A program made the translations under genes and the position numbers. The notes beneath the pieces were generated by a model. That model did no database searches. It had not been told where the DNA came from and saw only the letters and a list, made by a program, of their open reading frames with translations. From contig CAITKP010000015.1 in assembly GCA_903892995.1 (NCBI GenBank), positions 1-51,676 on the forward strand: DNA of 51,676 nt, written 5' to 3'. This DNA comes from an uncultured Campylobacterales bacterium (GTDB taxonomy: Bacteria > Campylobacterota > Campylobacteria > Campylobacterales > Sulfurimonadaceae). Below are positions 33,830-36,075 of the stretch, one piece after another; positions within the stretch are counted from its first letter, which is position 1; the number at the start of each line of letters is the position of its first letter.

Positions 33830-35218
33830 ATGGTCGTTACGCGTTTTGCACCATCTCCAACAGGGTATCTTCATATCGGAGGACTGAGAACTGCATTGCT
33901 TTCTTATCTTTGGGCGAGAAAGAATAATGGAAAGTTCATCTTACGCATCGAAGATACTGATATGAGCCGTAACTCGCAAGAGGCCGCAGAAGCGATTGTA
34001 AATGCTTTTAAATGGCTTGGACTCTCACACGATGGCGAAATCGAATACCAATCGCAAAGAATGGATATCTACAAACAGTACATCCAAAAGCTTCTCGATG
34101 AGGGCAAAGCATACTATTGTTATATGTCAAAAGAGGAGTTAACATCTCTTCGTGAAGAGCAGATGGCACGTAAAGAGCGCGCGATGTATGATGGACGCTA
34201 CCGTGATTTTACTGGAACTCCACCAGAAGGTGTTGAGCCAGTTGTGCGTATCAAAGCACCACTTGATGGAAGTATAACTGTAAAAGACGGCGTAAAAGGA
34301 GATGTGACTTTTGAGGTGAAAGATATTTTAGATGACTTCATTATTGCACGTGCGGATGGAACACCTACTTACAACTTCGTCGTAGCTGTTGATGATGCGC
34401 TAATGGGTGTCAATGTCGTTATTCGCGGCGATGATCACCTGTCAAACACTCCAAAACAGATGGTCGTTTATGAAGCTTTGGGCTTTGAGTTGCCAGAGTT
34501 TAATCATGTTCCAATGATCCATAACAAAGAGGGCAAAAAGCTAAGTAAACGTGATGGCGCGACAGATGTTATGGCATATAAAGAGATGGGTTATACGCCT
34601 GAAGCTCTACTCAACTTTTTAGTGCGTCTTGGTTGGAGCCATGGAGATCAAGAGATTTTCTCGATGGATGAGATGATGGAGTTTTTTGATCCAAAAGATA
34701 TCAATCGCTCTGCATCCATCTACAATGTGGAAAAACTTGATTGGCTCAGCGCTCATTACATCAAGAATATGTCCAATACAAAACTCGCAGAACTACTAGA
34801 GGATTTTGGTCTTGTGCTCTCATCACACGATAAAAGAGAGATCCTTTTAGACGCATTTAAAGATCGTGCTAAAACACTTAAAGAGATGGCAGACCTTATC
34901 AACGAAGTGCTTAGCGTTCCTGTGGTGTATGATGAAAAAGCTGTTGCAAAAGGGTTTAAAGCTGATGCTCCTGAGATATTGCACGCTTTTTGCGAGAAGT
35001 TGAAATCAGCCGATGAATTGCATTTGCCAGTGGATTATCATCATGTTATGGAAGAGCTTGTAGCAGAGAAAGAGATCGGTTTTGGTAAGATCGGGCAACC
35101 GCTTCGCATCGCTCTTATGGGAAAACTCTCAGGTCCAGGGCTTGATGTAGTCATGTCTATCATCGGACGCGATGAGACGCTTTCTCGCATAGAAGCAGCG
35201 ATAAAGGCAAACAGCTAA
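33830..35218 (+). CDS. gltX: Glutamyl-tRNA synthetase
   Basis: The 462-residue class I synthetase has the HIGH-type motif (APSPTGYLHIGGLRTAL) near residue 12 and the KMSKS-type KKLSKRDGA near residue 237. The zinc-like YYCYMSKEEL region is also present. Length is normal. Campylobacterota usually have two such enzymes, one specific for tRNA-Gln, and which of the two this is cannot be told. A short leader precedes the start. Confidence 0.95.
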   Translation: MVVTRFAPSPTGYLHIGGLRTALLSYLWARKNNGKFILRIEDTDMSRNSQEAAEAIVNAFKWLGLSHDGEIEYQSQRMDIYKQYIQKLLDEGKAYYCYMSKEELTSLREEQMARKERAMYDGRYRDFTGTPPEGVEPVVRIKAPLDGSITVKDGVKGDVTFEVKDILDDFIIARADGTPTYNFVVAVDDALMGVNVVIRGDDHLSNTPKQMVVYEALGFELPEFNHVPMIHNKEGKKLSKRDGATDVMAYKEMGYTPEALLNFLVRLGWSHGDQEIFSMDEMMEFFDPKDINRSASIYNVEKLDWLSAHYIKNMSNTKLAELLEDFGLVLSSHDKREILLDAFKDRAKTLKEMADLINEVLSVPVVYDEKAVAKGFKADAPEILHAFCEKLKSADELHLPVDYHHVMEELVAEKEIGFGKIGQPLRIALMGKLSGPGLDVVMSIIGRDETLSRIEAAIKANS

Positions 35219-35227
35219 CAAGCTGTT
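35210..35227 (+). terminator. Terminator at the end of gltX
   Basis: AACAGCT, loop AACA, AGCTGTT followed by TTAGC. The stem begins in the last codons of the gene. Confidence 0.55.
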
Positions 35228-35244
35228 TTAGCTCTTTCTTAGCT

Positions 35245-35254
35245 TTACATGTAA
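35245..35254. repeat. TTACATGTAA dispersed palindrome (intergenic copy)
   Basis: An exact copy in GCTTTACATGTAAGGATC, just after the gltX terminator and before the long inverted repeat. Confidence 0.85.
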
Positions 35255-35290
35255 GGATCTTCTTTCGTTACTTTTTTATGGAAATTCTCT

Positions 35291-35677
35291 CATACTTTTT
35301 TTTCCGCAAAAAAAGTATGCAAAAAAGCTCGTGTCAGCAGTTGGATTTCTTTACGCCTTTTTTCGGTCACTGCGTCTAAAAATGCAAAACTCGGCTACAC
35401 CTCAAACAGTTGCATTTTCTTCACGACTTCGCTCGGTCAAAAAAGCTAAAATCCAAAGTGACACAAAGAGAACGCCGACCAAACTCACCCGTCAGTTGCA
35501 ACACCTGCAGAGCCAAGAAAATACGCATAAATCTCGTAAAGAAAATTCAACTGTTTGAGGCGTAGCCGAGTTTTGAATTTTTAGAGATTTGTGAGGAGTT
35601 TCTTGGGAACTTGCCAAAGGCAAGCTCGAAGCCGTTGCAAGAGCTTTTTGCGTACTTTTTTGCGAAGAAAAAAGTAC
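35291..35677. repeat. Long imperfect inverted repeat, gene-free (about 390 bp)
   Basis: The two halves are imperfect reverse complements. The inner arms are about 35377-35428 (AAACTCGGCTACACCTCAA...) and 35532-35584 (...TTGAGGCGTAGCCGAGTTT); the outer parts share GCAAAAAAGCTC and GAGCTTTTTGC. Each end has its own hairpin: 35291-35319 (CATACTTTTTTTTCCGCAAA...) and 35652-35677 (GTACTTTTTT, loop GCGAAG, AAAAAAGTAC, perfect). No protein frame fits. It could be a MITE-like element or a structured terminator/RNA. The region 35219-35721 holds no gene I can support. Confidence 0.75.
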
Positions 35678-35721
35678 ATATAGTAAAATGACGAAGAAGA
35701 GTATTTAACTGTTCTAAATAT

Positions 35722-36075
35722 TTACTTCACAAACTCCGAACCCAACTGCGTCAATACCAAAGTAACTCCATCACTTTGAACTTCAAAAAATCCCTCTTTT
35801 TCAAGCTCGTGCATTGCTTCTTCTAAGGCTTCGTTTTGCGGTTTATCGAGCTTTTTGATGATCTCTCTTGCGACATCGAGCTTTGTCATTATCTGTCCGA
35901 CTTGGTTGTGTCTTGTAAACCATGAAAAGAACATCGCTTTTACTTCATTTTTTGGTGCTACGTCTAAGGCAGTTTTTTTAGGTGGTGCTTTTCTCTGCAC
36001 ATTTCTAGGTGTAGCTTTAGCGCCAGTTCTTGGTGGTTTGCTCGTATTATAATTTTTTTTAGAAGTTGATTTCAC
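35722..36075 (-). CDS. Conserved hypothetical protein with basic N-terminus
   Basis: The 117-residue protein has a Lys/Arg/Pro-rich unstructured start (residues 1-45, KPPRTGAKATPRNVQRKAPPKK) and a compact helical C-terminal part (VGQIMTKLDVAREIIKKLDKPQNEALEEAMHELEKEGFFEVQSDGVTLVLTQLG) that looks like a winged-helix fold. The basic tail suggests nucleic-acid binding. I do not recognise a named family. It lies 12 bases after the end of metH on the same strand. Confidence 0.6.
   Translation of the reverse strand: MKSTSKKNYNTSKPPRTGAKATPRNVQRKAPPKKTALDVAPKNEVKAMFFSWFTRHNQVGQIMTKLDVAREIIKKLDKPQNEALEEAMHELEKEGFFEVQSDGVTLVLTQLGSEFVK

Follow-up and report, generated by a model that had tools for sequence, protein, structure and literature searches.

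A strand-specifically folding two-module repeat beside gltX in a Campylobacterales bacterium belongs to a cross-phylum set of hairpin repeats

What kind of element is the 387-bp gene-free block at 35291-35677 of the window, the 51,676-nt stretch of DNA that was analyzed here, and how might it have come to lie beside gltX? The window is contained in the 2.43-Mb draft genome (G000) of an uncultured Campylobacterales bacterium. On the 5' side of the block is gltX, which is on the + strand and ends with its stop codon at 35218; on the 3' side is a 117-aa ORF on the - strand (35722-36075), which has no Pfam match and is followed by metH. The genes on either side of the block therefore converge. The initial annotation described a gene-free inverted repeat of about 390 bp with matching inner arms and a hairpin at each end, and these features hold up: the inner arms (35375-35426 and 35534-35585) are 52 nt long, 92% complementary and separated by 107 nt, and the end hairpins are perfect, with CATACTTTTTTT/AAAAAAAGTATG on the left (35291-35319) and GTACTTTTTT/AAAAAAGTAC on the right (35652-35677). 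The tail-hairpin pattern, with 0.00 occurrences expected by chance in the window, is found twice, at the two ends of the block. The fold predicted for a 401-nt stretch has an energy of -143 kcal/mol, compared with -91 +/- 5.7 for shuffled sequences (z = -9.1). No ORF was found inside the element, nor a linked gene, and no promoter in the element rose above chance.

Alignments of 11 full units and 22 B modules show that the term “inverted repeat” is only partly apt. The arms are complementary, but the unit consists rather of two related modules of ~190 nt, arranged head to head with their hairpins face to face and their tails outward (Table 1). Module B reads along the + strand (35490-35677) and module A along the - strand (35465-35291). 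The 5' part of a module comprises an outer stem, an AAGAAAA-stem, CTGTYTGA, a variable mini-hairpin and GAGTT, and the 3' part comprises the stem-TTTTTAG, the outer stem, GAGCTTTTTTG and a tail hairpin of the form TACTTTTTT-loop-AAAAAAGTA. Forms of the mini-hairpin at the tip include GC-GAA-GC, AC-GAA-GT, GGC-GTA-GCC and GGGC-GAA-GCCC. An additional side hairpin with covarying arms (CTTGCC/GGCAAG, CCTAAC/GTTAGG, CTCGCC/GGCGAG) is present in module B, which is also found alone, without A. The A tail recurs in inverted orientation as the B tail (I3, 21 nt, 90%), giving the unit terminal inverted repeats, and TTCTCT...AGAGAA is present at the rims of several copies of the unit. The suggestion in the initial annotation that this might be a decayed mobile unit finds no support, since no decay is visible and both halves and both tails are intact.

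Table 1. Features of the two-module unit in the window
Feature	Position	Strand	Basis
Module A tail hairpin (CATACTTTTTTTTCCGCAAAAAAAGTATG)	35291..35319	-	12-bp perfect inverted repeat; genome-wide, pattern found only at the ends of the two units
Module A T-run (AGCTTTTTTG on - strand), junction of long hairpin and tail	35320..35329	-	Sequence; in most of 11 aligned units
Module A long hairpin, outer stem GTGTCA/TGACAC	35331..35465	- (sense)	11-unit alignment; alifold
Module A conserved tip (...AACTGTTTGAGGTGTAGCCGAGTTTTG... on - strand)	35364..35429	-	Covariance model R1, E 2e-9
Spacer between the two heads	35466..35489		Variable in unit alignment
Module B long hairpin with side hairpin GAACTTGCC-AAA-GGCAAGCTC	35490..35639	+ (sense)	Alignment A3, 22 modules; alifold
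Module B conserved tip (AAGAAAATTCAACTGTTTGAGGCGTAGCCGAGTTTTGAATTTTTAG)	35531..35596	+	Covariance model R1, E 1e-10
Module B T-run (AGAGCTTTTTGC)	35640..35651	+	Sequence; conserved in A3
Module B tail hairpin (GTACTTTTTTGCGAAGAAAAAAGTAC)	35652..35677	+	10-bp perfect inverted repeat; same pattern counts as A tail

Evidence that the folding is specific to one strand came from three independent sets of modules, in each of which the better-folding strand is the one that bears CTGTYTGA. Alifold values are -37.7 for the sense strand and -27.0 for the antisense strand of B modules, -36.0 and -20.5 for A modules (where sense is the minus strand of the window), and -23.7 and -15.5 for the modules of another, related genus. 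The predicted pairs on the sense strand contain an excess of G-U over A-C cells (42:4 in B, 33:2 in A and 70:13 in the other genus), part of which is expected because RNAalifold prefers G-U to A-C when choosing pairs; the same program gives the reverse ratio, 4:14, for the complement of B, and a smaller excess for the complements of the other two sets. Double compensatory changes affect 21 of the 38 consensus pairs in the modules of the second genus, and the module alignments also contain invariant bases outside the stems. Covariance folding, one of the checks proposed in the initial annotation, thus shows stems that covary and fold on one strand. Together, sense-only folding, the G-U excess and covariation indicate that one strand is selected to fold, and this selection would look alike whether it acts on RNA or on single-stranded DNA.

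Strand-specific folding with G-U pairs is also expected of a functional RNA, and the chief competitor to a mobile repeat is an RNA whose structure serves the cell. Under this model, the module would be transcribed on its sense strand or act in a 3' UTR, in stability, processing or antisense control. The independent occurrence of strand-specific folding and a large G-U excess in A and in B, the doubly compensated pairs and the invariant unpaired bases are all consistent with such a role, as are nucleotide conservation exceeding that of the neighboring gene and the retention of the element beside the same genes in several species. However, elements that are processed as single-stranded DNA should also fold strand-specifically, and no promoter stood out above chance. 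No Rfam 15 match reached the gathering score in the window, the matches at the element all being sub-threshold, and none did so for related modules. Moreover, the element is dispersed, multi-copy and patchy: two genomes of its genus lack it, as do 280 of the 298 sampled across the phylum. A cellular RNA role seems unlikely. The two labels offered by the initial annotation, MITE and structured RNA, are better regarded as aspects of one thing, a MITE-like dispersed repeat in which both halves fold strand-specifically.

Searches of the same genome and of relatives yielded the further copies that the initial annotation had proposed to look for, and the block is not the unique, unconserved sequence that it had named as the contrary case. 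A second full copy, 84% identical, is present in the same genome (G000:C45:24011-24408). Full and/or half copies are present in four other species of the genus (G002, G003, G006 and G007), G001 has a rearranged copy, and solo B copies were found in G003, G006, G002 and G024; no copy was found in G004 or G005, which belong to the same genus. A genome-wide search of G000 found the tail-hairpin pattern TACTTTTTN{2,10}AAAAAGTA four times, each time at an end of one of the two units, and the reversed-pattern control not at all; R1, a covariance model of the tip, has just four matches in this genome, which are the tips of these same units. R1 matches occur in 18 of 60 relatives, with at most 18 per genome, and in 18 of the 298 genomes of the phylum sample, a patchy distribution of the kind seen for mobile DNA. 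With two copies in its own genome and several at non-homologous sites in relatives, the unit is short, dispersed and non-coding, like a MITE.

Within the genus, copies recur in several species at the same sites, namely gltX, mazF, trpC, icd and an endonuclease gene. This sharing of a few sites is also consistent with retention for function. Between G000 and G007, the gltX copies of the element share 93% identity and the adjacent gltX DNA 79%. The mazF copy of G007 is 95% identical to the gltX copy in the same genome but 83% identical to the mazF copy of G003. Since copies within a genome are more alike than copies at the same site in different species, these data suggest either recent spread to the same favored sites or gene conversion. 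Three of seven genus relatives have no trace of the element beside gltX, and one has only a remnant. Nothing similar was found downstream of gltX in G003, a restriction-enzyme gene lies on the far side at this site in G006, and in G001 a single fused tail hairpin follows the gene where others have the full unit. The G001 hairpin was considered as an empty target site, but deletion between two direct TACTTTTTT repeats is a simpler explanation, because the loop matches the right tail and the left rim matches the left tail. No genus copy was seen, on reading by eye, in a clearly divergent intergenic region, and no clear orientation rule emerged across phyla. A bias with respect to the replication strand was not robust: the sense strand is opposite to the leading strand for 10 of 12 modules in G031, but among the eight single modules of G003 and G006 this holds for four.

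The convergent flanking genes, together with the outward T-run after each long hairpin, raise the alternative that the block is a bidirectional terminator for gltX and the 117-aa ORF, with each transcript reading the whole double hairpin and ending at the T-run of the far module. The initial annotation had placed the block between the gltX terminator and an unrelated gene; the flanking genes are gltX and the 117-aa ORF, but a consensus scan of 35100-35800 found no intrinsic terminator, using a short-loop model that does not cover stems this large. By reading, a gene runs into the module in the orientation that the T-run could serve in only about three of nine single B modules. The relatives that lack the element at gltX, or retain only a remnant, also argue against this function, as does its absence from most of the phylum, and the element is far bigger than termination requires. 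A terminator function is improbable.

The part of the element that is shared across phyla is its tip, which consists of CTGTYTGA, a variable mini-hairpin and GAGTT. A scan of 84,980 species genomes with CAACTGTTTGARCGNAGYGAGTTTTG found at least 119 stretches, against about 0.002 expected by chance on simple arithmetic. The tip is set by the search pattern itself, but the flanking arms are free of it, and these pair in 6.4 of 10 positions, compared with 3.2 for shuffled partners. Among the tip matches listed are members of the Campylobacterota, Lachnospiraceae and other Bacillota, Fusobacterium, Thermodesulfobacteriota, Patescibacteria, Bacteroidota, Gammaproteobacteria and others; many of the listed carriers are MAGs, but isolates are also represented (Anaerocolumna, Fusobacterium, Natronincola and Arcobacter). 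The hairpins that bear the tip have arms of up to ~100 nt and unrelated stem sequences. Tip-like matches, mostly weak, occur in eight plasmid records, and the tip occurs in three viral contigs; module B has no phage match and a single plasmid match, to a 37-nt piece. In Aureibacter tunicatorum pAT2 (L228, 2001-2048), a small annotated ORF contains the tip, and two tandem tyrosine recombinase genes follow directly downstream of it. Literature searches for the tip core, the tail motif and TTACATGTAA, a 10-bp palindrome described below, found no relevant paper in the collection searched.

Evidence of movement came from distant carriers of the tip. In a MAG set of 23 tip-bearing units, the units end in 13-bp terminal inverted repeats, GTAACTATTCAGC...GCTGAATAGTTAC, and the 8-bp flanks are identical in 10 of 23 and differ by at most one mismatch in 13 of 23, where 0.65 are expected from shuffled partners. 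These terminal repeats and target duplications indicate that the units of this set are transposed MITEs. The end motif has 141 + 127 copies in one such MAG and none in the reversed control. The combination of GTAA ends and 8-bp duplications is typical of IS66-type elements. In Natronincola, the same host terminator hairpin is found on both sides of the unit in three of four copies, as for GGGCGGGTATAAAAACCCGCCC in L172, which suggests that units in Natronincola peptidivorans (L120, L171 and L172) may have inserted at terminators with a target duplication of ~22-24 bp. Sharp-ended dispersed copies occur in four lineages, including Anaerocolumna and a gammaproteobacterial MAG. Target duplications, which the initial annotation had proposed as a check, are thus present in distant tip-bearing relatives, but none was seen at the copies of the window's genus, this one included. 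Searches for an autonomous partner found no gene family linked to the loci examined; in one MAG, the first 100 terminal-repeat sites listed included no two ends paired at 1-3 kb; and clustering of 1169 ORFs around repeat loci gave only housekeeping genes and translated repeats, with no recurring gene family. The RAYT/Y1 transposase (PF01797) was rejected as the mover, being absent from G000-G003 and G007 and present in 7 of 18 tip-positive and 18 of 42 tip-negative genomes, which shows no association with the tip.

Comparison with known systems places the element closest to MITEs, with which it shares being short, non-coding, palindromic, dispersed and intergenic, and, in the distant relatives with the same tip, the 13-bp terminal inverted repeats and 8-bp target duplications. 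It differs in that neither a target duplication nor a parent transposon was found for the genus copies, in that two modules are joined head to head, and in that one tip is common to several phyla and to different ends. There are also parallels with the REP/REPIN sequences mobilized by RAYT, which are folded palindromic modules, single or in inverted pairs, in intergenic DNA, with a mover assumed to act in trans (PMC3116915, PMC2817692, PMC3733652). However, REP modules are 20-40 nt long and have a GTAG tag at the foot (PMC3116915, PMC2817692, PMC3733652), whereas the modules here are ~190 nt, have few copies per genome and bear no such tag, and the Y1 transposase is absent from the bacterium's own genome and from four of the five other tip-bearing members of the genus. 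The tail, a T-run followed by a T-stem/A-stem hairpin, has an arrangement that might allow it to fold back into a triplex, as in A/T-rich intrastrand triplex motifs (PMC4666352), although the motif characterized in that study is G/C-rich, unlike the A/T tail here.

Integron attC sites are likewise long imperfect hairpins with variable stems and strand-specific folding, often at the 3' sides of genes, and the tip repeats form cassette-like arrays in two genera. It could be proposed, then, that the element is an attC-like recombination site bounding small gene cassettes. In other genera, tip repeats of ~170-300 nt alternate with toxin-antitoxin gene pairs: G038 has three same-strand repeats (L198, G038:C37, 3598-5907) spaced 1101 and 909 bp apart, with BrnT/CopG genes and a coiled-coil gene between them, and G019 has repeats around RelB/YafQ (L202, G019:C137, 1403-2672). 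PIN and restriction-enzyme genes lie on the variable side in the window's genus, and integron integrases are present in the family. Against this proposal, the conserved part here is the tip and not the ends, no RYYYAAC/GTTRRRY pair was seen at the module ends, and most copies adjoin housekeeping genes. Moreover, there is no association with the integron integrase, TIGR02249 being over the cut-off in 4 of 18 tip-positive and 12 of 42 tip-negative genomes and absent from the bacterium's own genome. An attC-like role is very unlikely. As separate observations, the toxin-antitoxin arrays of G038 and G019 carry the same or a closely similar tip at a spacing of ~0.9-1.1 kb, like that of gene cassettes, intact integron integrases (TIGR02249) are common in the family (G002:C4, G007:C67, G004, G005 and G031), and broken remnants occur in G001, G003, G024 and G038.

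Other palindromes were noted in the course of the analysis. The 10-bp palindrome TTACATGTAA occurs 756 times in the bacterium's own genome, compared with once for the reversed control, and at 21 exact sites in the window (e.g., 125, 2821, 12075, 35245 and 47775), two thirds of them inside ORFs. It occurs 48-1220 times in genomes of the genus, of three other genera of the family and in one genome of another family, and 0-6 times in the other relatives; in this it is like the highly iterated palindromes of which cyanobacterial HIP1 is an example. Smaller palindromes are nested within loops of the repeat's hairpins (GCGCCCGAAGGAAGTGCCCTTGGGGTA in the loop of the tip and AAACATCCCTGCGGGAGCGCTTCGCTTGTTTT before the tail), and TTACATGTAA is itself interrupted by a smaller palindrome, TTACATGCGAAGTGCCCTTGGGTGTAA. 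Nested-palindrome sites were seen in L015 (1620-1740), L041 (1580-1610), L040 and L042 (near the tail) and L062.

The block is a real, repeated, two-module element that folds strand-specifically and belongs to a cross-phylum set of hairpin repeats, some members of which are transposed MITEs. The best explanation for it, with a probability of roughly 0.6, is that it represents a compound copy of a mobile repeat, MITE-like and non-autonomous, in which one strand folds. This reading is supported by the second copy in the genome, the full and half copies in relatives, the tip shared across phyla and the target duplications of the MAG set. On the sequence comparisons made here, the link between the genus repeat and the distant transposed MITEs would run through the shared tip and general architecture, and not through overall similarity. 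We infer that transposition, aided in trans, brought this copy to its site, and that the helper recognizes the tip. A putative recombinase or transposase would recognize the element in its folded form, whether single-stranded or extruded DNA, and insert it into intergenic DNA, with promoter-side insertions being lost; in the window's genus, copies would then stay at a few sites and be homogenized with one another.

Long hairpin repeats are commonly viewed as clutter specific to a lineage. Here, one tip is common to repeats of Campylobacterota, Fusobacteriota, Bacteroidota, Bacillota, Pseudomonadota, Thermodesulfobacteriota and Patescibacteria, and these repeats have covarying stems, differing ends and, in some lineages, clean transposition scars. 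It is possible, rather than probable, that a recognition structure moves between classes of mobile repeats across phyla in the form of this tip (stem-CTGTYTGA-(GC-GNA-GC hairpin)-GAGTT-stem), and that one widespread host or mobile-element factor recognizes it. If so, a single factor would handle hairpins with otherwise unrelated stems and ends. The covariance model and the motif provide a handle for finding the factor that recognizes the tip, and the finding opens the question of whether the spread of bacterial MITEs needs a folded single strand.
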